Shown here: positions 7,708-60,676 of the stretch, piece by piece
How positions within the stretch are numbered: the first letter of the stretch is position 1
Layout of the letters: every line of letters begins with the position of its first letter
DNA from: Deltaproteobacteria bacterium HGW-Deltaproteobacteria-13
Lineage (GTDB): Bacteria; Desulfobacterota; Syntrophia; Syntrophales; Smithellaceae
DNA: 64,000 bases
Direction: 5' to 3'
Assembly (NCBI GenBank): GCA_002840555.1
Contig: PHBJ01000002.1
Coordinates: forward strand, 124,001 to 188,000
Position numbers and translations under genes: made by a program
The notes under the pieces: generated by a model
Seen by the model: only the letters and a program-made list of their open reading frames with translations
What the model was told of the DNA's origin: nothing
Database searches by the model: none

Positions 7708-7889
7708 CTATTATTAATAACAATATCAATATTTTAAGAATAATATTTCTTTTTTGCCTCAAAAGTAAATTACCCGCAGCAGCCGGTAAACAGGCCTGAT
7801 CCATCAAATATTAAATATAATCGAAAAAATGCTTGCAAAATACCGTCTTATAGTTTAGTAACGACGCACATTTCTAGGAGGATTTTTAA

Positions 7890-8087
7890 ATGTCTCGTAT
7901 TTGTGAAGTATGTGGAAAAAAGCCGGCAATAGGCAACAAAGTGAGCCATGCCAATAATAAAACAAAGGCAACATGGTATCCTAACTTGCAGAAATTACGT
8001 TGTGTTGATGAAAAAACCGGCTCCATAAAAAGAGTTAAGGTTTGCACCAGTTGCATTCGTTCCGGATTTGTTAAAAAAGCTGTTTAA
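7890..8087 (+). CDS. rpmB: 50S ribosomal protein L28, zinc-binding form
   Basis: A 65-residue bL28 with [12 protein letters not shown] at the start and VKVCTSC near the end. Two CxxC pairs (C5/C8 and C52/C55) make this the zinc-ribbon (C+) paralogue type. AGGAGG stands eight bases before the ATG. It is monocistronic. Its last 17 bases overlap the convergent gene on the other strand. Confidence 0.96.
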
Positions 8088-13162: not shown

Positions 13163-13549
13163 ATGAACATAGCCACTAAAGCAGCATTATATAATGCTCT
13201 TCTTTTCCCGGGATGGGGGCAGATATATTTAAAGGATTATAAAAAAGGAACCGCGATCATCGTCGCCGTTATCGCCGCAATTTTATCTATTTTATTCTCG
13301 GTCATTCAAACAACTAAAACGCTTTTAAAAATTTCTCCCTTCAAAAAAGGAACCGTTACCCTTGAAGCCGTTGTAAAATTATCTGTCACTTCGCTAAAGC
13401 AGCTGAATCTGTCTTATATTTCCCCCCTTTTATTATTCATTCTGCTGCTTTGGATTTTTTCCATGATTGACGCTTACCTGCGCGGGAAAAAAGAAATGGC
13501 GAAAATTAATACTGCCGCTGATCCAGAATCAACTTCTCCTGAGGTTTGA
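13163..13549 (+). CDS. Small integral membrane protein (DUF5683/TM2-like)
   Basis: 128 residues. The opening AALYNALLFPGWGQIYLKDYKKG matches the Pro-Gly-x-Gly-Gln-x-Tyr pattern of small bacterial membrane proteins of the DUF5683/TM2 kind. Three hydrophobic segments follow (about 12-24, 30-48 and 90-108). A very strong AAGGAGGAGG precedes the ATG. No function is known. Its last 44 bases overlap the end of the convergent ligase gene. Confidence 0.7.
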   Translation: MNIATKAALYNALLFPGWGQIYLKDYKKGTAIIVAVIAAILSILFSVIQTTKTLLKISPFKKGTVTLEAVVKLSVTSLKQLNLSYISPLLLFILLLWIFSMIDAYLRGKKEMAKINTAADPESTSPEV

Positions 13550-14759
13550 TTTCACCGGCGTTCAGATATTCCAGATGATCAATTCTCACCGTGCATATTT
13601 CGCGAAATATTTTCTTAAAATCTTCTTCCCACGGTGAACTGCCGATTTCGTGCGATATTTTTTCAATCCGTAATTTAAGTATATCTTCATGACCTGAGCG
13701 GCTCACCACCACCTGCAATGGAAGGTTATTGAATTTTGATTGAATCATTTTGATCTGACTCGGCGCCACAAATAATCCGCGAACTTTCACAGCGTCTCCT
13801 ACCCTGCCCGCGATTCCAGCCAGACGATAGGAAGTCCTTCCACAGGGGCAGGCTTCCGTAATCAGACGCGACAAATCTCCGGTTCCAAACCGCAGCAAAA
13901 AGAAAATATTGTTGAGCCTTGTGACCACGACTTCCCCTAATTCTCCGTCGGGAACATTTTTACCTGTTGTAGGATCAACGATTTCCACGATTGTTTCTTC
14001 GCAGATATGCCATCCTTTTTTTTCGGAGCATTCATAAGCCACATCACCAACCTCGGTAGCTCCGTACATTTGATACGTATCGATGCCATAATCATTCTCA
14101 AATGAACGCCGCAAACCGGGCAAGAGCGGCTCTGCCGCGAAGCAGGCTTTCTTCACCAGGAAATCTTTCTTGAAATCGAAACCCATTTCTTTGGATTTAT
14201 CAATAATGGCCTTCAAGAAGCTGGGAGTGCCGACATAAGCGGTAACTTTTAGATCCTTGATTAACTGCACCTGTACCTGTGATGATGAAGTACCCGAGGG
14301 AACAACTGTTGCGCCTACCCTGCGCAGGCCGGTATGAAAGGTCAATCCTGCGGCGACCAGATGATAGGAAAAAGCATTTAACGCTATATCTTTGGGACCA
14401 ATGCCCGCGGCAAAAAAAGCCCGTGCCCATAAATAATCAGTCTCTGAAAGATGCGGTTCATAAACCGGTCCCGGAGAAGTAAAAATGCGATCAATGGAAA
14501 CATCGGGATTTTCCAAACCTGCATAAGGCGGGTCATCCATTTCCATCTCCACTAATTTTTCACGGGACGTCACCGGCAGGCACTCCAAATCTTCACGTGA
14601 TTTTATAGTGTCGGGATTTATTTTATGATTATCCAGCAGTGCTTTTACGTGCTCTGATTTTTCGAAACCAAGTTTTACCATTTCAGCCAGAGCCCTATCC
14701 TGCTGACTTTTTCTCTTCCTTTTCCCCCACGATTCTTTTTTATCGAATAAGTTGTTCAT
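13506..14759 (-). CDS. Phenylacetate-CoA ligase family protein
   Basis: An adenylate-forming acid:CoA ligase of the PaaK type (417 residues), expected to activate an aromatic or other carboxylic acid with ATP and CoA. Visible motifs are LECLPVTSREKLVE, SPGPVYEPHLSETDYLWARAFFAAG, VPSGTSSSQ (nucleotide loop), YQMYGATEVGDVAYEC, LRFGTGDLS and AGRVGDAVKVRG. The nucleotide loop is shorter in glycines than the family's SSGTTG. It is the last gene of the region that begins with the livK operon. The small ORF upstream stops 15 bp before it, and AAAGGA precedes the ATG. A relic of a second such gene lies at 15465-15536. Confidence 0.85.
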   Translation of the reverse strand: MNNLFDKKESWGKRKRKSQQDRALAEMVKLGFEKSEHVKALLDNHKINPDTIKSREDLECLPVTSREKLVEMEMDDPPYAGLENPDVSIDRIFTSPGPVYEPHLSETDYLWARAFFAAGIGPKDIALNAFSYHLVAAGLTFHTGLRRVGATVVPSGTSSSQVQVQLIKDLKVTAYVGTPSFLKAIIDKSKEMGFDFKKDFLVKKACFAAEPLLPGLRRSFENDYGIDTYQMYGATEVGDVAYECSEKKGWHICEETIVEIVDPTTGKNVPDGELGEVVVTRLNNIFFLLRFGTGDLSRLITEACPCGRTSYRLAGIAGRVGDAVKVRGLFVAPSQIKMIQSKFNNLPLQVVVSRSGHEDILKLRIEKISHEIGSSPWEEDFKKIFREICTVRIDHLEYLNAGEIKPQEKLILDQRQY

Positions 14760-14774
14760 ATATTTCCTTTTATA

Positions 14775-14948
14775 TTAATTTTTACAACCAAGAGCAGACA
14801 CTGTTCTTTGCACAGTCTTGTTTTTCGAATGCTTTTTCATGATTTCCCTGCCTGCGCTGGAATTGGCAAGCGATAGAGATACACGCCTCAATTCATTAGC
14901 AATTTTTAGACGGCTTGCAACAGATTCCGGACTCATGTCAATCTTCAT
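14775..14948 (-). CDS. 57-residue hypothetical protein overlapping the nucleotidyltransferase gene
   Basis: Unrecognised. The reading frame runs from the ATG at 14948 to TAA at 14775. It overlaps the upstream nucleotidyltransferase stop by 11 bp, an arrangement that favours coupled translation. The product is basic and helical in appearance (opening MKIDMSPESVASRLKIANEL, ending VQRTVSALGCKN) with no membrane segment. An internal ATG at 14936 is an alternative start. The ligase gene begins 15 bp after its stop. A small basic partner next to an AbiEii-like nucleotidyltransferase suggests a two-gene module, but no toxin or antitoxin family is recognisable. Confidence 0.5.
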   Translation of the reverse strand: MKIDMSPESVASRLKIANELRRVSLSLANSSAGREIMKKHSKNKTVQRTVSALGCKN

Positions 14949-15402
14949 TTTCCAGACTCCTCAGATATTCAATATCGTCCTTGTCCTGACCGCTATTGCG
15001 TAAAGATTTCAGTAAAATCAAACCTTGCGGAGATACTACCCTCAGAGGGTATCCTTCCCATTCTATCGTCGTATGATCATCCCAAGCTTTTTCTATTTCC
15101 GGAGTTACAATGAGCAAATCCAATATAAAATATTCACCGGAAACTTTATCAACCTTGCTCAACCTCTGAAGCTTGACAGCGCCATTATTAAATTCCATCA
15201 TTGCGGAACTCATCGTATAGCCAAGTTCCTTCGCTACTTCTTTTGTCTTTGAAAAATAATCAGGCTGCACCATAATATCAATATCAAGCGTCGCGCGGGG
15301 CTTCGCGTAAATGGCAATAGCCAATCCCCCGCATAAAGCATAATCTATCCCGGCTTGATCTAATTTTTTAGATAGTTTTTTAAGTTCTTCTAAAAGATCC
15401 AT
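14938..15402 (-). CDS. Nucleotidyltransferase-fold protein (AbiEii/DUF6036-like)
   Basis: 154 residues. The segment YALCGGLAIAIYAKPRATLDIDIMV (residues 21-45) has the GG...DxD pattern of the minimal nucleotidyltransferase fold, followed by a third acidic residue in YFILDLLIV. Proteins of this type include AbiEii-like toxins and uncharacterised nucleotidyltransferases. It is much shorter than full AbiEii, which has a large C-terminal domain. The 3' end overlaps a 57-residue ORF by 11 bp. It sits between a ligase relic and an intact ligase, in what should be a continuous ligase region, which suggests an acquired cassette. Confidence 0.65.
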   Translation of the reverse strand: MDLLEELKKLSKKLDQAGIDYALCGGLAIAIYAKPRATLDIDIMVQPDYFSKTKEVAKELGYTMSSAMMEFNNGAVKLQRLSKVDKVSGEYFILDLLIVTPEIEKAWDDHTTIEWEGYPLRVVSPQGLILLKSLRNSGQDKDDIEYLRSLENED

Positions 15403-15737: not shown

Positions 15738-16538
15738 CTACAACCAGCGTTTGCGGCGTCTATATGATTTGACGTCTTTATACGATTTAGCAATGCCCGA
15801 TGCCGCCATTCCCAGATAGAATTCTTTGATGTCCGGATTATCGGACAATTCTTTCGACGTGCCTTCCATCATGATTTTGCCGTTTTCCATGACATAGCCG
15901 TAGTGAGCGACCTGCAGGGCCATGCGGGCGTTTTGTTCCACCAGTATAATGGTCGCCTGTTGATCTTCATTTATTTTTTTGATGATGCGGAATATTTCCT
16001 GCACAACCAGCGGCGCCAGACCCAGGGAAGGTTCATCAAGCAATAAAAGCTGGGGATGGGCCATCAACGCGCGGCCGATGACCAGCATCTGCAATTCGCC
16101 GCCGCTGCAGTATCCGGCCAGCGCTTTTCTTCTTTTCACCAAGGCGGGGAAATAATTGTAAACAAGCTCCAGATCCTGCTTGTAAGGCTTGCCGAACCGT
16201 GTGGCTGTGCCGACACGCAGATTCTCTTCAATGGTCAGATATTTGAATGGCTGGCGGCCTTCCAGAACCTGAATAATGCCCTGGCGGGTAATGAATTCCG
16301 GCGCCTGATTCTGAATATTGACGCCGTTATAAATAATCGTTCCGTCAGTTACTTCGCCGTTTTCGGGCTTGAGCAAACCGGATATGGCTTTGAGTGTAGT
16401 TGTCTTTCCCGCGCCGTTACTGCCCAGAAGCGATACGATATGGCCTTTCTCCACACTTAAAGAAACACCTTTCAATACCTGTATAACATCTGAATATACA
16501 ACAGATATATTATTTATTTGTAAAAGAATATCTCCCAT
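15738..16538 (-). CDS. livF: Branched-chain/hydrophobic amino acid ABC transporter ATP-binding protein (LivF-like)
   Basis: One of two ATPases of a HAAT-family importer. Walker A GSNGAGKT is at about 39-46, the ABC signature CSGGELQM near 143, and Walker B LLLLDEPSLGLAP follows, with the H-loop region in ILVEQNARMAL. The LivF-type EGRQPFKYLTIEENLRVG segment (usually EGRxxFxxLTVEENL) supports the assignment. Nine bases separate it from livM upstream. The basic C-terminal tail (KSYRRRKRWL) is a small extension. Confidence 0.92.
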   Translation of the reverse strand: MGDILLQINNISVVYSDVIQVLKGVSLSVEKGHIVSLLGSNGAGKTTTLKAISGLLKPENGEVTDGTIIYNGVNIQNQAPEFITRQGIIQVLEGRQPFKYLTIEENLRVGTATRFGKPYKQDLELVYNYFPALVKRRKALAGYCSGGELQMLVIGRALMAHPQLLLLDEPSLGLAPLVVQEIFRIIKKINEDQQATIILVEQNARMALQVAHYGYVMENGKIMMEGTSKELSDNPDIKEFYLGMAASGIAKSYKDVKSYRRRKRWL

Positions 16539-16547
16539 AACGACACC

Positions 16548-17627
16548 TTAATATGAAAAAGGCCACAGCCGGAAACTGGAACGGATGATCCGCCACATTT
16601 CAGCCAGTCCCTTTGGTTCAATCAATATAAATAATACGATGGTCAGTCCAAAAACAAATTCCTTCAGCGGAGCCATATTCAAACCTAAACTGGTCACAAA
16701 TCCCACATTCATTAATATACCTGTAAAATATCGCAGGAATTCATTAAGCAGTGTGATAAACGTTGCACCGAAGATGGCACCGGGAATATTGCCCATGCCG
16801 CCTATAATAACCATGGCAATGTATTCCACGGAAAGTCCCAGATTAAATGGTTCCGTCGTAATACTCACCATGTAATAAGCCCAGAGAGCGCCGGCAAAAC
16901 CGGCATAAAACGAACTGATGCCGAATGACAATAGTTTGTATTTAAATATGGGAATGCCCATCCCTTCGGCGGCACGGTCATTATCGCGGATGGCAATGAA
17001 AGCCCGACCGTATTTGGTGCGCATGATATTTACCGCAAACCAGGTCATCAGAATAAGGCTAACGAAAATCAGAAAGAAAAAGGCTTTGTCTCCTGAAATT
17101 TGCCATCCTAAAATTTCGGGTGAAGGCAGCGTAATACCCATGGTGCCCATGGTGAGACTGTCCCACTGAATTAAAACATATTCTATGATAAATTGCCCCG
17201 CCAGAGTCGCAATGGTCAGATAAAGCCCTTTTAATCTTCCCGAAGGGATGCCGAAGATCATGCCGACAAGCGCGGTAATGATGCCCGCAGCCGGTATGGC
17301 AAAATAAAACCCTACTCCCAGCCTGGTAGCCAGGATTGCCGCGGCATAAGCGCCCACGCCGAAAAAAGCGCCATGTCCGAGAGATATTTGTCCGGTGTAA
17401 CCGATAAGGATATTCAGTCCGATGGCCGCAATGGCGGTAATACCGATTATATTGAGAATGTAGAGCATGTACGGGCTCAACACAAATGGAGCGACAAAGA
17501 AAAGCAAAGCCAAAAATACACACAGACTTAACCTGCCGAAATCCGTTTCAAAAATATTTAATTCCTGCGCGTAGTCTTCCCGGTAATTGCCGCAGGGATG
17601 AAAAGAAAATTTTCTCTTTACTTGCAT
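16548..17627 (-). CDS. livM: Branched-chain/hydrophobic amino acid ABC transporter permease (LivM-like)
   Basis: 359 residues with about nine or ten hydrophobic segments. The diagnostic segments are NILIGYTGQISLGHGAFFGVGAY near residues 70-92 and IRDNDRAAEGMGIPIFKYKLLSFGIS (the cytoplasmic loop that contacts the ATPase), followed by EYIAMVIIGGMGNIPGAIFGA. It partners with LivH in the inner membrane. It begins 3 bp after the livH stop. Confidence 0.92.
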   Translation of the reverse strand: MQVKRKFSFHPCGNYREDYAQELNIFETDFGRLSLCVFLALLFFVAPFVLSPYMLYILNIIGITAIAAIGLNILIGYTGQISLGHGAFFGVGAYAAAILATRLGVGFYFAIPAAGIITALVGMIFGIPSGRLKGLYLTIATLAGQFIIEYVLIQWDSLTMGTMGITLPSPEILGWQISGDKAFFFLIFVSLILMTWFAVNIMRTKYGRAFIAIRDNDRAAEGMGIPIFKYKLLSFGISSFYAGFAGALWAYYMVSITTEPFNLGLSVEYIAMVIIGGMGNIPGAIFGATFITLLNEFLRYFTGILMNVGFVTSLGLNMAPLKEFVFGLTIVLFILIEPKGLAEMWRIIRSSFRLWPFSY

Positions 17628-17630
17628 TGC

Positions 17631-18509
17631 TTAAACTCTCTCAATCTCAACTAAGCCAAATAATCCATAGGGTTTGACCATCAGAATAAATACTAAAACG
17701 ATATAGGGAACTACATCGCGTAACGACGGCGAAAGATACCCGCCGGTAAATGTTTCCAGAAGCCCGATAATAATTCCGCCAATAATCGCGCCTCCGATGC
17801 TGTCGAGCCCTCCGAGAATAACCACGGGGAATACTTTCAGGCCGATGGAACTCAGGTCATGAACGTTGACGCCGTTGATAATTCCGAGAACAATTCCGCT
17901 CATGCAGGCGACAAGCGCCGCAATCGCCCAGGAAAGCGCAAGCACCCGCCGGACATTAACGCCCAAAGAAAGAGCCGCCTTCTGATTGTCGGCAACAGAG
18001 CGCATGTAAATCCCCTGCGCTGATTTTTTGAAAAACAATCCGAACAACACAAGAAAAATAACACTGATAATCAACGTGGCCGAATAAACAGGAGCAATAT
18101 AAATGGCGCCGAATTGCAGCCCCATTGCCGGGGGTAAAAATTCCGGATAGGTATATAAATTGCCGCCCCAAATCAACAGAATCAAGCCTTTGAACATGGC
18201 CGCCAATCCTACCGTCAGCATAATAACAAAAATAAGTTTTTCACCGATTAACGGGCGCAGAAAAAATCTTTCTATAAGGAATCCCAGAAGAAAACAGCCG
18301 ACCAAAGTTAAAATGAAAGCAAGAACAATAGGCAGCTTTGCCCAAGTCACCAGTGCGAGAAAGAAAAAAGCACCCAAGGCCAGAAGTTCGCCGTGGGCAA
18401 AGTTCAATACGCTCGATGATTTAAAAATCATGACAAAGCCCATCGCGGAAATGCCGTAGAGCAGGCCGACACAAACGCCGTTGACTAATAATTGCAGAAA
18501 AAATTCCAT
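17631..18509 (-). CDS. livH: Branched-chain/hydrophobic amino acid ABC transporter permease (LivH-like)
   Basis: 292 residues, an integral membrane permease. It opens with LLVNGVCVGLLYGISAMGFVMIFK and has LNFAHGELLALGAF, the family hallmark of LivH. The loop SVADNQKAALSLGVNVRRV and the VFPVVILGGLDSIGGAIIGG segment are as expected. It lies between the acyl-CoA synthetase (11 bp upstream) and livM. Confidence 0.92.
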   Translation of the reverse strand: MEFFLQLLVNGVCVGLLYGISAMGFVMIFKSSSVLNFAHGELLALGAFFFLALVTWAKLPIVLAFILTLVGCFLLGFLIERFFLRPLIGEKLIFVIMLTVGLAAMFKGLILLIWGGNLYTYPEFLPPAMGLQFGAIYIAPVYSATLIISVIFLVLFGLFFKKSAQGIYMRSVADNQKAALSLGVNVRRVLALSWAIAALVACMSGIVLGIINGVNVHDLSSIGLKVFPVVILGGLDSIGGAIIGGIIIGLLETFTGGYLSPSLRDVVPYIVLVFILMVKPYGLFGLVEIERV

Positions 18510-18520
18510 GGATTAATTCC

Positions 18521-20449
18521 TTAGCTTACATTGATAACATTTATCGTTGTTTCTATCTCGCCGATTCTTCCATCGCGATACTTGACTTTACCGGTAACTT
18601 CAACATTCTTCTGATTCTGGTACATAGCTTCAATTATCTTCAGATACAAGCCGTAAACAAAACGGCGGCGCACTTTGCCTGTGCGCGTCAGTTCTTCGTC
18701 ATCCGCATCCAAAAGCTTATACAGAAGGACAAACTTTTTAATCTTCATGACTTCGGGAAGCTGTTCGTTAACCTGAATGACTTCCTTTAAAATCAATTCT
18801 TCTACAGCCGTTTGCTGGGAAAGGTCCATATAAGTCGTATAGGGGATCATTCTGTCTTCCGCCCAGTTGCCGACATTGTCCATATCAATATTGATCATGG
18901 CGGTTATGTAGGGACGGGCTTCGCCAAAAGTAACGGCTTCTTTAATATAGGGGCTGAATTTCAGGCGCGTCTCAATAAAATCGGGAGAAAAGGCATCACC
19001 GCTTTTATTGCGGATAATATCTTCCTTGCGGCCGATAATGAGCAAGTGACCATCGTTGTCGATATATCCGGCATCGCCTGTTTTTAGCCAACCGTTTTCA
19101 AAAGCGCCCTGCGTTGATTGATAGTCGTTATAGTATCCCGAAAAATTGGCTTCGGATTTAACCAGCACTTCCTGATCCTCAGCTATCTTTACTTGGGTCA
19201 GGGACAAAGGTTTGCCGACCGTTTCGAGTTTCACTTCGTTATCCGGCTGTATTTGAAATATTCCCCCGGATTCCGTCAGGCCATAGCATTGTTTTAAATT
19301 CAAGCCGACAGCTCTAAAGAAAAGAATAACATCGGGACTGATCGGATGTCCGCCTGTGAAGGCGCTGTGAAAACGGGAGCAGCCCAGACGATCCAAAAGA
19401 GGCCGGTAAACAAGAACAGACATTATTTTATATAAGACGTTCAGGGATCGGGGGATCGGCTCTTTATGCGATTGTTTTTCCACTATCGTTTTACCGATCG
19501 ATTCACCCAAGTAAAACAGTTTTTTCTTCAGCCAGCCGGCGTCAGATACTTTTACACGTATGCGGGAGGCCATATCTTCCCAGAAACGTGACGAGGTGAT
19601 AATCATGGCCGGACCGATATCCCGAAAATCTTCCAGGACCGTTTCCGCGGTTTCCGGGAAATTCATGCACATACCGCTCTTGAGCGCTACCCCCATTCCC
19701 CACATCTGATCAACAATCCAGGCCGGAGGAGACATGGAAAGCCAGTTTTCTTCCGGTTTAATTTTCGTTTCCTGCGTCCATTGATCCGCCATGGCCGTGA
19801 GATTTCGATGGGACAACATGGCCAGCTTGGGAACGCCTGTCGTTCCCGATGTTTGAATCATTACGGCTATATCATCCTGACGGCCTTTATTTATTTCCTC
19901 TTCGATAAAACCCGGATGTTCTTTAATGAATTTTTCACCCTCTTCCAGAAGCCGGGCATAGCTGATTAACCAGGGATCGTCTTCGTAGGAGGTCATGCCT
20001 GTGGGGTCAATGTAGACAACTTTTTTCGTCTGGGGCAGTTTATCTTTTACCTCCAGAAGCTTATCAACCTGCTCCTGATCCTGAACGACAACAACGGGAG
20101 AGTTGATACGTTTTATGGAAAAAACCAGTTCATCGGGAATTGACGAAGTAAACAAATTAAGGGTTGTCGCGCCCAGCGCATGCGCCGCCAGTTCCGAGAA
20201 AAGCCATTCCGGATGATTATGAACAACCATGCAGATATTTTCACCCCGCCGCAGATTCAAAGAGGCAAATCCCGCGGCCGTTATCTGCATATAACGGCAA
20301 TATTCAACCCAGTTGTATTTTTGCCAGATACCGTATGCTTTTTCGCGAATGGCCGTTTTAGTATCGCCATACAGGGCGGCATTATTCATCAATAACTGGG
20401 GCAGTGTTACTGTATTATTTTGAATTTTATTTTGCTGTTCTGTATACAA
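18521..20449 (-). CDS. AMP-binding acyl-CoA synthetase (long-chain fatty-acid-CoA ligase type)
   Basis: An ATP-dependent acid:CoA ligase (642 residues) of the long-chain/FadD15 type. The P-loop is IQTSGTTGVPK (about 198-208), then YGLTESGG, GWLKTGDAGYID and the hinge IIGRKEDIIRNKSGDAFSP. The substrate is not deducible. Its place inside a liv operon, and the ligase genes downstream, suggest it activates a carboxylate imported by the transporter or derived from it, but this is inference. The start is TTG at 20449, with AAGG upstream. The next in-frame ATG would remove a conserved-looking N terminus. Confidence 0.9.
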   Translation of the reverse strand: MYTEQQNKIQNNTVTLPQLLMNNAALYGDTKTAIREKAYGIWQKYNWVEYCRYMQITAAGFASLNLRRGENICMVVHNHPEWLFSELAAHALGATTLNLFTSSIPDELVFSIKRINSPVVVVQDQEQVDKLLEVKDKLPQTKKVVYIDPTGMTSYEDDPWLISYARLLEEGEKFIKEHPGFIEEEINKGRQDDIAVMIQTSGTTGVPKLAMLSHRNLTAMADQWTQETKIKPEENWLSMSPPAWIVDQMWGMGVALKSGMCMNFPETAETVLEDFRDIGPAMIITSSRFWEDMASRIRVKVSDAGWLKKKLFYLGESIGKTIVEKQSHKEPIPRSLNVLYKIMSVLVYRPLLDRLGCSRFHSAFTGGHPISPDVILFFRAVGLNLKQCYGLTESGGIFQIQPDNEVKLETVGKPLSLTQVKIAEDQEVLVKSEANFSGYYNDYQSTQGAFENGWLKTGDAGYIDNDGHLLIIGRKEDIIRNKSGDAFSPDFIETRLKFSPYIKEAVTFGEARPYITAMINIDMDNVGNWAEDRMIPYTTYMDLSQQTAVEELILKEVIQVNEQLPEVMKIKKFVLLYKLLDADDEELTRTGKVRRRFVYGLYLKIIEAMYQNQKNVEVTGKVKYRDGRIGEIETTINVINVS

Positions 20450-20468: not shown

Positions 20469-21296
20469 TTATAACGCTTCAGCCTCGCCGAGATAAGCCT
20501 TAATCACTTCGGGGTTGACACTGATCTCTTCGGCGCTGCCTTCCCCCAGTTTTTCGCCGAAATTCAAAACCATGATTCTTTGGGAAATACTCATGACGAT
20601 AGACATATCGTGTTCGACAAGAATCATGGTCAGTCCCCATACTCTATTCAACTCCAGAAGAAAACGGACCATATCTTCTTTCTCTTCCATATTCATACCG
20701 GCAAAGGGCTCATCAAGAACCAAAAGTTTTGGTTCCAAAGCAAGCGCACGGCCCAGTTCAACCCTTTTCATCATTCCATATGGCAGAGATCCTACTGTTT
20801 GTTTTCGAATGGACTGCATTTCCAGAAAATCTATGATTTCTTCGAGAGCCTGCCTGTGACGGATTTCTTCTTTTTTGACGGAACCGGAAAAAAGGCAGGA
20901 GCGCAAAACGCTGTACCGGCAATGAATGTGACGCGCCAGGGTCATATTGGCCAGCACGGTCATCCCCGGAAAAAGTTCTATATTTTGAAAAGTTCTGCCA
21001 ATTCCCACACCGACAAGTTCGTGGGTGTGAAGATGGCTGATATCCTGCCCATTGAATATTATTTTACCCTGTTGTGCGCGGTAGAACCCGGTTATGCAAT
21101 TAAGAAGGCTCGTTTTACCTGCTCCATTAGGGCCGATAATTGCCATCAATTCACCGGTGTGAACCTCAAGATTAACATCCTTGACGGCAATAACGCCGCC
21201 AAAGCTTAAACGCAAACTTTGAATCGAAAGTTCCGCCCTTTTATCTTCTTCCCGCCGGTTGATCATGATTGACGGCCGGCTGCGAAAAGCTTTCAT
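20469..21296 (-). CDS. livG: Branched-chain/hydrophobic amino acid ABC transporter ATP-binding protein (LivG-like)
   Basis: 275 residues. Walker A GPNGAGKT is at about 55-62, followed by NCITGFYRAQQGKI, the LivG-type GIGRTFQNIELFPGMTVLANM, signature LPYGMMKRVELGRAL (in place of LSGGQ) and Walker B LLVLDEPFAGMN. An N-terminal extension of about 20 charged residues precedes the ABC domain. GAGG lies five bases before the ATG. A stem-loop separates it from livK. Confidence 0.92.
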   Translation of the reverse strand: MKAFRSRPSIMINRREEDKRAELSIQSLRLSFGGVIAVKDVNLEVHTGELMAIIGPNGAGKTSLLNCITGFYRAQQGKIIFNGQDISHLHTHELVGVGIGRTFQNIELFPGMTVLANMTLARHIHCRYSVLRSCLFSGSVKKEEIRHRQALEEIIDFLEMQSIRKQTVGSLPYGMMKRVELGRALALEPKLLVLDEPFAGMNMEEKEDMVRFLLELNRVWGLTMILVEHDMSIVMSISQRIMVLNFGEKLGEGSAEEISVNPEVIKAYLGEAEAL

Positions 21297-21367: not shown

Positions 21368-22573
21368 TTACTTCTTGAGCAGTTTTATCTTATCCTTGCC
21401 GGGTACATAGAAATTGGTGAGCGGCGTATAAGTTCCGTCTTCTTTAACCCTGACCATGCGCGCGGTGAAAGATGCGCCGTGATCATTTTTAGTGTAGGTT
21501 ATTTTCGGCACCAAACCGCCGAAATCTTCATTTTTAAAAGACTCCAGTGCGGCATTGACTGTTTCCGGAGTGATATTTTTGCTTTTTTCATAAGCACGGA
21601 TAAAGGCGCGTTCCATAATCATGCCGATAACGACACCTTCCCAGTACGAAGCGTCAAACTTATTAACTGTTTTATAACGTTTCCATAATTCCTGCATCAC
21701 AGCCATCCCTTTAGATTTGTCGGAAGGTAATCCTCCGGGAAACTGAATGACCAGCCTGTCGCGAATAAGTCCTTTGCCCATTTTGAAAAAGTCAGGGTCG
21801 GTCGATGTCCAGGTTCCCAGGAAAACCGGGCTGTAATTTATACGATCAGCGCTTTTGAAAGCCGTAATAATCGCTGAAGGCAGCATCTGCATAAAGATAT
21901 ATTCCGCGCCGGCTTTCTGTAAGCGAAGAAGCTCTGTATTGAGATCAACTGTTTTAGGAGGAAATTCTTCCACGGCAACCAGATTAATCCCCAGTTGTTT
22001 AGCGTATTCCTTGCTTGGAGCATGAATAGAACGGCCATAGGCGTTATTATATGTTAAAAGACCGACTTTAGGAGCATCTTTACCTTTATGAATCGCTTTA
22101 ATGTATTCGAACACGGCATGACAATCCATTTTGTAGCTGCCAAAAGGCAAATACATATAATCTACCGGTTTCTCCAGGATTTCCCAACTTGTGGAGTAGT
22201 TGATGGTAGGCACTTTATATTTTTGGACAATAGGTTTTGCCGCCAATCCCTCACCCGCGCCCCAGGTTGCAATCATGTCTACTTTGTCCTTTAGAACAAA
22301 TTTATTAACGGCCGCCTGTGCTTCGGGAACCTTGTAGGCCGTGTCCACGGAAATCATTTCAATCTTGTTGCCAAATACCCCGCCCTTAACCTCGTTTACA
22401 TACCGGAAATAATCACGTTGACCTTTTTCATGAAATTGCCCCCATGTTGACGCGGGACCTGTCAGGTTGATTGCAGCTCCAACTTTAATCGTCTCGGCCC
22501 GTAAACTGCCGACACCTGCAATCAGAAAAATAGCGGATAATACTGCAACTAAAACTCTATTTTTCATATTCAT
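21368..22573 (-). CDS. livK: Hydrophobic amino acid ABC transporter periplasmic substrate-binding protein (LivK-like)
   Basis: 401 residues. A Sec signal (MKNRVLVAVLSAIFLIAGVG) precedes a likely cleavage after RAE near residue 27. The mature part begins IKVGAAINLTGPASTWGQ, the usual start of the periplasmic binding protein type 1 (LivJ/HAAT) fold. WGAGEGLAAKPIVQKYKVPTIN and YNNAYGRS follow in the expected places. GGAGGAA precedes the ATG. It is the first gene of the operon. The ligand is unknown, but the Phe-rich leader upstream hints at phenylalanine or an aromatic acid. Confidence 0.92.
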   Translation of the reverse strand: MNMKNRVLVAVLSAIFLIAGVGSLRAETIKVGAAINLTGPASTWGQFHEKGQRDYFRYVNEVKGGVFGNKIEMISVDTAYKVPEAQAAVNKFVLKDKVDMIATWGAGEGLAAKPIVQKYKVPTINYSTSWEILEKPVDYMYLPFGSYKMDCHAVFEYIKAIHKGKDAPKVGLLTYNNAYGRSIHAPSKEYAKQLGINLVAVEEFPPKTVDLNTELLRLQKAGAEYIFMQMLPSAIITAFKSADRINYSPVFLGTWTSTDPDFFKMGKGLIRDRLVIQFPGGLPSDKSKGMAVMQELWKRYKTVNKFDASYWEGVVIGMIMERAFIRAYEKSKNITPETVNAALESFKNEDFGGLVPKITYTKNDHGASFTARMVRVKEDGTYTPLTNFYVPGKDKIKLLKK

Positions 22574-22625: not shown

Positions 22626-22664
22626 AAAAAAAAACCGTGGGCTGGTACTTATCTGCCCACGGTT
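22626..22664 (-). terminator. Intrinsic terminator inside the livK leader (attenuator stem 3:4)
   Basis: On the minus strand AACCGTGGGC (bases 22664-22655) pairs perfectly with GCCCACGGTT (22642-22633), 10 bp with a 12-base loop, followed directly by a run of nine T. This is a textbook intrinsic terminator. It points toward livK and ends about 50 bp before the livK ATG, so it would stop transcripts started at the upstream promoter unless disrupted. The left arm continues into AGA, which can pair with an upstream TCTGCC (22703-22698) instead. Confidence 0.85.
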
Positions 22665-22683
22665 CATTACCCTTTGCTGATGG

Positions 22684-22770
22684 TCATGATTCTGTCAGGC
22701 AGACCTTTAAGTTAATAAAGCTAAAAAAATAAAAAAAGACTGCCTTTTTAAAAAAGTAATTTTTTAACAT
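22684..22770 (-). CDS. Phe-rich leader peptide, candidate attenuator of the livK operon
   Basis: A 28-codon ORF from the ATG at 22770 to TGA at 22684, read on the minus strand. Seven codons are Phe (positions 6, 7, 12, 13, 15, 16, 18) and two are Tyr. It starts MLKNYFFKK and ends VCLTES. AGAGG lies 11 bases upstream, rather far for a ribosome-binding site. It ends 20 bp before an intrinsic terminator. Codons 9-11 contain AGGCAG, able to pair with CTGCCT in codons 24-26. That in turn overlaps TCTGCC, which can pair with GGCAGA of the terminator's left arm. This is the arrangement of a translation-controlled attenuator. The many TTT codons also reflect T-rich DNA, so translation is unproven. 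Confidence 0.6.
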   Translation of the reverse strand: MLKNYFFKKAVFFYFFSFINLKVCLTES

Positions 22771-22795
22771 GTTCAATACTGCCTCTTGTTTGAGG

Positions 22796-22825
22796 CATAT
22801 AGAGCAAATATACCCGAAATGTCAA
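22796..22825 (-). promoter_or_regulatory. Sigma-70 promoter for the livK operon leader
   Basis: On the minus strand, TTGACA (22825-22820) is followed after 18 bases by TATATG (22801-22796). The expected start point is near 22789, within a small GCCTC/GAGGC dyad (22781-22796). This gives a leader of roughly 215 nt before livK. The -35 matches consensus exactly and the -10 matches four of six. Confidence 0.6.
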
Positions 22826-22860: not shown

Positions 22861-22892
22861 TTTGCCCATCCTGTTTAAGCAGGATGGGCAAA
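22861..22892. terminator. Strong stem-loop after the PilR-like gene
   Basis: A perfect 13-bp inverted repeat, TTTGCCCATCCTG and CAGGATGGGCAAA, with loop TTTAAG, two bases after the regulator's stop codon. On the minus strand no T-tract follows, although the stem ends in A/T pairs. It very probably ends the two-component transcript and separates it from the livK promoter. Confidence 0.65.
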
Positions 22893-59251: not shown

Positions 59252-60676
59252 ATGCGGAAACTTATTCAAAATCAATATATTTATTTTGCCCTAATATTAT
59301 TTGTTTTATTATTCCGGGCAAACCCTTGTCTTGCCGAATTCACTATTGCAGATGAGAAAAAACTTGGCAAAGAATTTTATGATAAACTGGAAGAACATCA
59401 ACTTATCCTTAAAAACAAAGTCCTGAATGATTACATAAACAAAATCGGCAATTTAATTTTGACACAAACGAAAAAAGCGCCCTTTGAATTTCGTTTCTCC
59501 ATCGTGGATAGTTCAGCAATAAACGCTTTTGCCACACCCGGCGGTTACATTTACATCAACAAGGGATTAATAACAGCCGCTGAAAATGAGGGGGAACTGG
59601 CTGGTGTTATTGCTCACGAAATCGGCCATGCCAATGCCCGTCACGTTGCCAGTATTATTGAAAAATCAAAAAAATTAAATATTGCCACATTGGCCGCAAT
59701 TATCGCCGGAGCTTTCCTCGGTGGCGGCGGTCAGGCTACTGCGGCAATCGCCGCTTTCTCCATGGCCGGCTCCAGCACCCTGACTCTTAAATTTATGCGT
59801 GAACATGAAGAAGAAGCAGACCGGTTGGGAATAAGTTATCTCGTCGGCGCCGGTTATTATCCCGCGGCAATGATCGATTTTCTCAAAATTATGAAGCAAA
59901 ATGAGTTTCTCTCTAAAACCATGCCGTCTTACCTTCTGACGCATCCGGGTACAGACGACCGTATTTTCTACATGGACAGTCTGATTTTAACGCAATATCC
60001 TCAAAAAGGAGCAAAAAATATAATCGGTAATTTCAACAGGATCCAGGTTCTTGTTCCGTTAGATACGACTGATGAACTGAACAAAAAATACAGGCAACTG
60101 GAAGAGTCTTTAAAAAAAGATCCGGCTAATGTTGACTTGCTCTACACCTTTGCTTTCGTTGAAGATCAACTGGGACAAACAAGCTCCGCTCTTATTCACT
60201 ATCAGAAGGCCCTGAGTTTATCGCCGCGGGATCAAGATGTTTTGAAAAATATCGGGTTAATTTATTTAAAAACGGGACAAGCCGATCTTGCGCAGAACTA
60301 TCTTCTGCGGGCTGCCGGTTTAAATGCCGATAACGATGAAGTTACTTATGCATTAGGCAAGGCTTATTTAGCGACGGGGAATTATCAGAAGGCTCTGGAT
60401 TGCTTTTTAAGATTAGAAACCGCTTCACAGGATAATGACGATATTAATTATCAAATCGCCATGGCTTACGGCAAACTGAACAAGCAGGGAGAATCTCACT
60501 ACTACTTTGGCCTGCATTTCAAAAAAGAGAAAAAGAAGGAAAGCGCTCTGTTTCATTTCAAAGAAGCGCTCAATTATTTTCCTAAAAATTCGGAACGAAG
60601 CATTGCCATTCAACAGGCAATAAAAGACCTGGAAACCGGCGGGCGTCAGAAATCGGAGGAGAAACCAAAGCCTTGA
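59252..60676 (+). CDS. M48 family metalloprotease with TPR domain (BepA-like)
   Basis: 474 residues. A signal peptide (IYFALILFVLLFRANPCLA) is followed by the M48 zinc site H122-E-I-G-H126, with a third ligand Glu in HEEEADRLG (about residue 190). A glycine-rich insertion follows the HEXXH. The C-terminal 190 residues hold four or five TPRs (YTFAFVEDQLGQTSSALIHYQKAL and more). This is the architecture of BepA, a periplasmic protease of outer-membrane protein quality control. Confidence 0.9.
   Translation: MRKLIQNQYIYFALILFVLLFRANPCLAEFTIADEKKLGKEFYDKLEEHQLILKNKVLNDYINKIGNLILTQTKKAPFEFRFSIVDSSAINAFATPGGYIYINKGLITAAENEGELAGVIAHEIGHANARHVASIIEKSKKLNIATLAAIIAGAFLGGGGQATAAIAAFSMAGSSTLTLKFMREHEEEADRLGISYLVGAGYYPAAMIDFLKIMKQNEFLSKTMPSYLLTHPGTDDRIFYMDSLILTQYPQKGAKNIIGNFNRIQVLVPLDTTDELNKKYRQLEESLKKDPANVDLLYTFAFVEDQLGQTSSALIHYQKALSLSPRDQDVLKNIGLIYLKTGQADLAQNYLLRAAGLNADNDEVTYALGKAYLATGNYQKALDCFLRLETASQDNDDINYQIAMAYGKLNKQGESHYYFGLHFKKEKKKESALFHFKEALNYFPKNSERSIAIQQAIKDLETGGRQKSEEKPKP

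Follow-up and report, generated by a model that had tools for sequence, protein, structure and literature searches.

Operons of the HAAT (liv) type are routinely named branched-chain amino-acid transporters, and genomes leave it ambiguous whether IorAB and PaaK-type ligases serve the breakdown or the building of aromatic amino acids. Leader peptides show which amino acid matters to the cell, and so yield testable predictions for substrate and direction. The 64,000-nt stretch of DNA analysed here (the window), from a Smithella-like anaerobe, carries a candidate of this kind on its minus strand at 22825-22626, where a promoter, a Shine-Dalgarno-like site, a Phe-rich ORF and a terminator precede livK in that order. 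Ribosome-mediated leader attenuators of this kind are textbook regulators, and their mechanism is familiar from the pheA, pheST and trp leaders of enterobacteria. The livK leader shares with these a peptide rich in the presumed regulated amino acid, an antiterminator and a terminator that exclude one another, and an intrinsic terminator before the first gene. It differs from them in that it would control an uptake and CoA-ligase operon, and in that its GGTCTGCC element is common to the aro, trp and ior leaders described below. We asked whether the livK leader is an attenuator, and what the operon behind it is for.

Parts of a putative attenuator ahead of livK

The leader and operon comprise the following features.

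22796..22825, minus strand: sigma-70-like promoter (TTGACA 22825-22820, 18-nt spacer, TATATG 22801-22796)
22785-22782, minus strand: Shine-Dalgarno-like GAGG ahead of the leader ORF
22684..22770, minus strand: leader peptide ORF MLKNYFFKKAVFFYFFSFINLKVCLTES, 28 codons with seven Phe and two Tyr
22740..22745, minus strand: element 1, AGGCAG, the weakest element, able to pair with element 2 in 88% of alignment cells
22698..22705, minus strand: element 2, GGTCTGCC, 5' half of the antiterminator, ending 11 nt upstream of the leader stop
22652..22663, minus strand: element 3, ACCGTGGGCAGA, partner of element 2 (antiterminator) or of element 4 (terminator)
22626..22642, minus strand: element 4 and T-run, intrinsic terminator by folding and terminator alignment
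21368..22573, minus strand: livK, HAAT-family substrate-binding protein (Pfam PF13458; AlphaFold model pLDDT 90.9)
20469..21296, minus strand: livG ATPase (profile matches)
18521..20449, minus strand: AMP-forming acyl-CoA ligase, FadD-like (PF00501), between livG and livH
17631..18509, minus strand: livH permease (profile matches)
16548..17627, minus strand: livM permease (profile matches)
15738..16538, minus strand: livF ATPase (profile matches)
13506..14759, minus strand: distant PaaK-like CoA ligase (TIGR02155 187.6 bits, short of the cut-off of 646.3)

The original prediction had read a sigma-70 promoter, a 28-codon ORF with seven Phe and two Tyr codons, and a terminator about 50 bp before livK, and each of these was found. 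TTGAC recurs upstream in 45 of 46 livK loci, this one included. The terminator arms, 22663-22655 and 22642-22634, form nine perfect pairs (ten counting an outer A-T), the T-run extends to 22626, and livK starts at 22573, 52 bp further on. Separately, a 32-nt inverted repeat at 22861-22892 lies directly after the stop of a PilR-like regulator gene and ahead of the livK promoter; it is terminator-like and has no clear T-run on the minus strand.

With a substrate-binding protein, two permeases and two ATPases, the operon encodes the complement of a HAAT system. Its ligase scores 256 bits against NF038343, below the cut-off of 950, and an AMP-forming ligase is present in the operons of all 14 relatives examined. 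The PaaK-like gene lies about 1 kb beyond livF and may or may not share the transcript; it is present in 9 of the 14 relatives' stretches and absent from 5. Between livF and this gene a small ORF (14938-15402, minus strand) looks nucleotidyltransferase-like by eye. It occupies the same place in one relative (L076, 84% identical) and is not among the rows listed for the others. The LivK model best matches PDB entry 3lkb, which holds valine (Z 46.1), followed by 4n03, titled as a fatty-acid transporter binding protein (Z 42.1). As a guide to the ligand the structure is ambiguous, amino-acid, fatty-acid and aromatic-acid binders all being among its matches.

The leader is conserved with livK in Syntrophales

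It could be argued that the locus is an ordinary promoter and terminator around a spurious AT-rich ORF, its Phe codons owed to T-rich sequence and its pairings to chance. Within the window, 5 of 403 ATG ORFs of 15-40 codons encode at least seven Phe, so the leader ORF by itself is unremarkable and Phe-richness is weak as evidence. Against this explanation, the ORF, core and terminator are kept in 46 of 47 genomes, the terminator covaries, and the leader residue switches to Tyr or Trp in sister operons; we consider it very improbable. The 177-nt leader also folds 4 s.d. below dinucleotide shuffles, with 0 of 200 shuffles as stable. A covariance model of the core finds one strong site in the window, at 81.1 bits (E 1.2e-13), a score to be read with the window's own leader among the training sequences. 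The next-best site, at 20.6 bits, is this hairpin read on its other strand. Another Phe-rich ORF, with VCPE at its end (59309-59398, minus strand), was rejected as chance; it runs opposite the ORF 59252-60676 and its core match reaches only 9.8 bits.

The original prediction had looked to related genomes for a conserved Phe-rich leader, and the relatives bore this out. livK is present in 47 of 60 genomes, and when the upstream regions of all 47 were examined the leader was kept in 46, the window's own included in both counts. These 46 comprise 45 aligned leaders and one (L131) on a separate contig end of the genome whose livK also lies at a contig end. Two of the 47 livK loci were dropped before alignment, L013 for the contig end and L043 for its degenerate leader (genome G048). 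Among the loci listed, sequence farther upstream varies between genomes and the leader is constant. A Phe-rich ORF with at least four Phe is present in all 45 aligned leaders; for L038 the automatic call took the wrong ORF and the true one was seen separately, and L047 lacks its 5' part at a contig limit. Element 2 has the exact sequence GGTCTGCC in 39 of the 45, and the leader stop falls 11 nt after it in 38. The observation behind the original prediction is thus confirmed at the level of sequence, and conservation settles it.

Outside Syntrophales and a second family, f52 (below), no recognisable leader was seen by eye in the roughly 260-330 nt upstream of 10 of 10 livK homologues (L335-L344), an inspection that covered 10 of the 30 livK-bearing genomes from outside these groups. 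Because such leaderless homologues exist, the Phe leader appears to be a trait of particular lineages and not of the transporter family. Within Syntrophales, decayed leaders were found in two f14 genomes, G048 and G433, where the promoter-like site of livK is kept and the leader and terminator have decayed (L325, L332). G048 also lacks a strong iorA, its best match being 45% identical.

Alternative pairings of the leader

Across 44 distinct livK leaders, 95.6% of the cells of the terminator (3:4) hold standard pairs and 32 cells are doubly changed. Over 44 livK and aroF-type cores (29 from the 45 livK leaders, plus 15 from the 16 leaders of aroF or related type, L121 being missed by the pattern) the values are 93.9% and 48, and 0 of 500 shuffles scored as high on either measure. 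The antiterminator (2:3) pairs in 90.1% of cells in the distinct livK leaders (slid control at most 51.1%) and in 98.5% over the 44 cores (slid control at most 53.1%). Compensatory changes are all but absent from it, the sequence of element 2 being nearly fixed, and the pairing is kept through one-sided changes. Of the three covarying stems foreseen, then, 3:4 covaries, 2:3 is held by pairing but nearly without compensation, and 1:2 is weak. Element 2 also has a rival partner, the downstream GACC beside the stop, pairable in 89.2% of cells with no covariation.

We then folded the leaders under restrictions. With element 4 not yet made, as for a stalled ribosome, 2:3 formed in 45 of 45 leaders, and with element 2 covered 3:4 formed in 45 of 45. 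The antiterminator and the intrinsic terminator are thus predicted to be mutually exclusive. Before element 4 and with no ribosome, 2:3 was dominant in 36 of 45 leaders and the 1:2 helix in only 8. From the ladder of alternatives originally proposed, the exchange between 2:3 and 3:4 therefore stands, but its first rung is weak. With all elements present at equilibrium the terminator wins in 35 of 45 leaders, so the switch would need co-transcriptional folding.

Taken together, the livK leader is very probably a ribosome-mediated transcription attenuator of the trp/pheA type that senses charged tRNA-Phe. Its computed support is good, comprising the ORF, the promoter-like site, the alternative pairings, the conservation and the paralogous attenuators; the putatively translated ORF carries a run of codons for the amino acid that would be regulated. 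All of this evidence is computational, and it supports the attenuator interpretation first given to the locus. We infer ribosome stalling, a response to Phe and a service of the operon to Phe supply. When charged tRNA-Phe is scarce, the ribosome would stall in the Phe run, leaving element 2 (GGTCTGCC) free to pair with element 3 (GGGCAGA); the 2:3 helix would block the terminator and livKG-ligase-livHMF would be transcribed. When Phe is plentiful, the ribosome would reach the stop and cover element 2, allowing the 3:4 terminator to form and end transcription ahead of livK.

Sister attenuators across the phylum

The same genome carries an aroF-aroB-pheA-aroDE-aroA-aroK-aroC operon whose leader, MVRKLNVNNNFFAYWYYTYFTLVCPALRRTC, is rich in Phe, Tyr and Trp and has the same GGTCTGCC element; the left arm of its terminator can pair with GGTCTGCC. 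Gene names in this operon were assigned by reading of translations, PheA by domain match.

L062 ~7854-8010 (G000:C6), minus strand: aroF-pheA leader of the same genome, F/Y/W-rich with the same core, followed by a second hairpin and T-run

A model based on sequence alone (R1) gave no other strong leader in this genome; the aroF leader came to light when the region ahead of aroF was read. Across 31 genomes a pattern search gave 72 matches against 28 in a backward control, with the livK and aroF leader types recurrent; given the control, many single pattern matches are chance. The covariance model of the core (R2) matched in 127 of 395 sampled genomes of the phylum at E ≤0.001. Loci fetched from among the R2 matches listed were sorted in three batches by the longest downstream ORF, not necessarily the first gene; in one earlier batch four contig-end loci were read at the wrong offset.

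Besides livK, the core precedes aroF, ADTH-synthase and trp genes. The 60 matches of the last batch comprised 14 aroF, 8 ADTH synthase, 6 iorA, 5 trpD, 4 trpE, 3 livK and 2 Tyr-class HAAT binding-protein loci, the reference names ADTH synthase, trpD and trpE having been assigned by reading of translations, and 18 loci without a BLAST match to the references. By reading, 7 of these 18 resembled chorismate synthase, 2 shikimate kinase, 2 type-I DAHP synthase, 1 a TrpB-like protein and 1 acetolactate synthase, with 1 ending at the contig and 4 left unnamed. Reportedly, Lopatovskaya et al. 2010 surveys attenuation, and its coverage may already include the aro and trp leaders of this phylum.

Several single loci deserve mention. 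In L274 (G020:C63) the core match stands ahead of an ORF that looks acetolactate-synthase-like by eye, and the core may serve branched-chain leaders too. L275 (G312:C7) has a Trp-rich leader, AWWCWWWK, ahead of an ORF that is TrpB-like by eye. L127 (G040:C42:30000-31100) shows three adjacent Trp codons in what may be a leader, together with the same core, before a gene for a secreted-looking product that is possibly kin to phenol-degradation outer-membrane proteins. In two same-genus genomes (L118, L120) the ORF behind an aroF-type leader is not aroF; it starts MFRPQIKVIDCTIRDGG and is aldolase-like by eye.

Phe, Tyr and Trp leaders on transporter operons

Phe leaders also precede livK in a second family, f52, where they were seen in 8 of 8 cases (MALEPIHTNSINFFFFD, MAHYVSLTTSSSFFFFFG and others, with FFFF(F)). 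Three f52 operons read livK-livG-ligase-livH-livM-livF-paaK, the paaK of the third being cut by the contig end, and a strong iorA lies elsewhere in 8 of 9 f52 genomes with Phe leaders. In f52 leaders the stop falls just ahead of element 2, unlike the 11-nt-after geometry of Syntrophales; the ribosomal footprint suggests that element 2 would be covered in either arrangement once a ribosome has reached the stop.

In families f90 and f109, Tyr leaders (VRTQFSFNHIGYYYYGYLRRSAL and others) precede livK'-livH-livM-livG-livF-paaK-iorA-iorB (L245, L246, L247, L253, L318); at a further Tyr-leader locus, L317, iorAB lies about 7 kb farther on. In f57 and f40, Trp leaders (MVNSRKARHTGNWWRWWWSGPGVRSAHR, MGKNKLTFWGWWWWKNQGGEVCP and others) precede iorA-iorB-livH-livM-(livG)-livF-paaK-livK', seen at L248, L249, L250 (no livF picked up), L314 and L315 (whole) and L316 and L319 (partial). 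The f40 Trp operons are followed by a TrpB-like gene (758.7 bits against a cut-off of 366 in L314; a similar ORF in L315). Against IorA (TIGR03336, cut-off 650.9) one Tyr-operon protein scored 737.8 and one Trp-operon protein 658.1 bits, both above the cut-off. For PaaK (TIGR02155), one Tyr-operon protein at 494.1 and one Trp-operon protein at 442.5 bits did not reach the cut-off of 646.3.

Residue totals follow these classes, with the miscalled L038 and L123 (wrong ORF or start) and the contig-limited L047 counted as computed. The 45 Syntrophales livK leaders hold F279/Y52/W2, both W coming from L038, and the eight f52 livK leaders F38/Y3/W0, a count that leaves out G324, whose leader was seen separately. 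The Tyr class (6 leaders) holds F10/Y29/W0, the Trp class F6/Y1/W43 (9 leaders, the genes of L257 lying beyond the contig end) and the Syntrophales aroF class F40/Y52/W13 (15 leaders). As judged from these sequences, the leader residue tracks operon type. What appears to be new is the placing of Tyr leaders ahead of HAAT-paaK operons, mostly with iorAB next, and of Trp leaders ahead of iorAB-HAAT-paaK operons; operons of HAAT, CoA-ligase and IorAB genes would come under a single attenuator group that has one core and leaders for Phe, Tyr or Trp.

The linkage of iorAB to the operon seems to hold only in the Tyr and Trp versions. In the window's own genome iorAB lies about 18 kb from the livK operon, its iorA scoring 726 bits, above the TIGR03336 cut-off of 650.9. 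No iorAB directly adjoining the livK operon was found in the 14 relatives' stretches; in many relatives it is on the same contig about 18-35 kb away, and in some farther. A strong full iorA is missing from 5 of the 47 livK genomes, of which one is 71% complete and one has a fragment. Co-occurrence of livK and strong iorA over 60 genomes (42/5/7/6, Fisher p 0.009) is confounded by shared ancestry and incomplete genomes, and we do not rely on it as proof.

What the operon may be for

The role of the operon was inferred from gene company. In our best reading it would supply Phe, whether by taking up an arylacetate, activating it with CoA and carboxylating it reductively, or by importing Phe as such. 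The likeliest role, to which we give about an even chance, is uptake of an arylacetate such as phenylacetate, its activation to the CoA ester, and conversion by the IorAB encoded elsewhere to phenylpyruvate and on to Phe. An attenuator that opens at amino-acid shortage argues for the building direction, and the sister Tyr and Trp switches on similar uptake operons suggest that such operons feed aromatic amino-acid synthesis. The original prediction that the operon may import phenylalanine or aromatic acids is sharpened by these sister operons towards arylacetate salvage; the Tyr and Trp attenuators on PaaK-type ligase operons, mostly with IorAB, favour salvage by analogy and are no proof of it for the window's operon. 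We regard the salvage reading as fairly strong in the case of the Tyr and Trp operons, which encode IorAB together with the transporter. It is weaker for the window's Phe operon because IorAB is elsewhere, paaK is absent in 5 of 14, the ligase is FadD-like in 14 of 14, and import of Phe would explain the leader equally well. The genome's own aro/pheA operon also speaks against a salvage role.

Two other explanations accept the attenuator as described. In one, import of phenylalanine (or aromatic amino acids) is all that the transporter does, and the CoA ligases are incidental or act at a different step. It is the simplest logic to import the amino acid whose tRNA is sensed, and valine is bound in 3lkb, the best structural match of LivK (Z 46.1, against 42.1 for the next). 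Yet a CoA ligase sits inside the operon in all 14 relatives examined, and PaaK-type ligases, in most cases together with IorAB, are encoded in the Tyr- and Trp-leader operons. Amino-acid import would need none of these; we regard simple import as possible and somewhat doubtful. In the other, Phe limitation is a general starvation cue and the operon is catabolic or makes a product other than Phe from an acid, as in fatty-acid or aromatic-acid degradation. The FadD-like character of the ligase and the fatty-acid title of the second structural match, 4n03, lend themselves to this, as does the reading of iorAB in passages of PMC5817080 as aromatic amino-acid fermentation. It would be odd, however, for amino-acid shortage to turn on a catabolic operon, and the IorAB-PaaK operons that stand behind corresponding Tyr or Trp leaders, among them a kind with a TrpB-like gene, point to biosynthesis; we think a catabolic role unlikely.

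Returning to arylacetate salvage, we tentatively propose, at slightly less than an even chance, that one GGTCTGCC-core attenuator family across the phylum runs three parallel routes, in which shortage of the matching charged tRNA (Phe, Tyr or Trp) would bring about import, formation of the CoA ester and IorAB-dependent reductive carboxylation to the arylpyruvate. If this is true, one can read from the attenuators in which direction IorAB works physiologically and what class of substrate these 'branched-chain' transporters take up.

Relation to known pathways and leaders

Arylacetate assimilation by phenylacetyl-CoA ligase and Ior in methanogens is described in PMC6737245, which also notes that gene presence is no proof of function. 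The operons here likewise pair a CoA ligase with indolepyruvate:ferredoxin oxidoreductase, joined by an uptake system; they differ from the methanogen route in being preceded by attenuators with Tyr or Trp leaders, and in the Phe form IorAB is missing from the operon. In rumen cultures, too, Phe can be made from phenylacetate, according to PMC7356843.

Attenuation ahead of ABC transporter operons has a precedent in the ABC-leaders of Naville and Gautheret (PMC2965389). As far as the source was seen, these differ in consisting of a T-box and further motifs, exemplified in lactobacilli, enterococci and bacilli, and 'phenylalanine', 'livK' and 'pheA' are absent from its main text. In Geobacteraceae, a related lineage, a conserved short RNA element is tabulated 5' of the DAHP synthase gene (PMC2700814). 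Standing likewise before an aromatic-pathway gene, it may be kin to the aroF leaders here, a likeness drawn from its description and not from the GGTCTGCC core; in the portions seen it is presented as a predicted RNA element with no mention of a leader peptide. The literature covered, which included passages of PMC2965389, PMC2700814, PMC4833913, PMC5817080, PMC7356843 and PMC6737245, yielded nothing on Phe, Tyr or Trp leaders that attenuate HAAT/PaaK/IorAB operons.

Rfam searches at gathering thresholds gave no match in the window. The Rfam Phe_leader model (RF01859, gathering score 55 bits) had no match in the window's own leader locus (L195) up to E 2. In a permissive search it matched two f52 livK leaders of one genus on the leader strand, at 30.8 and 28.4 bits (E 0.13 and 0.45) against the required 55; in the leader loci searched, the attenuator group thus gave sub-threshold matches only and reached no Rfam threshold.

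Further features of single leader groups

A long hairpin is possible in f52 leaders such as L203 and L227, where the run of Phe codons is able to pair with A-rich sequence lying past element 2. This is the region aligned by the Rfam Phe_leader model, and the hairpin may be a protector there. In the distant livK leaders L033, L036, L037, L041, L044 and others we observed a second terminator-like hairpin (GGCCGTGG...CCACGGCC or close, with a T-run), whose left arm resembles that of the first terminator and might compete with it.
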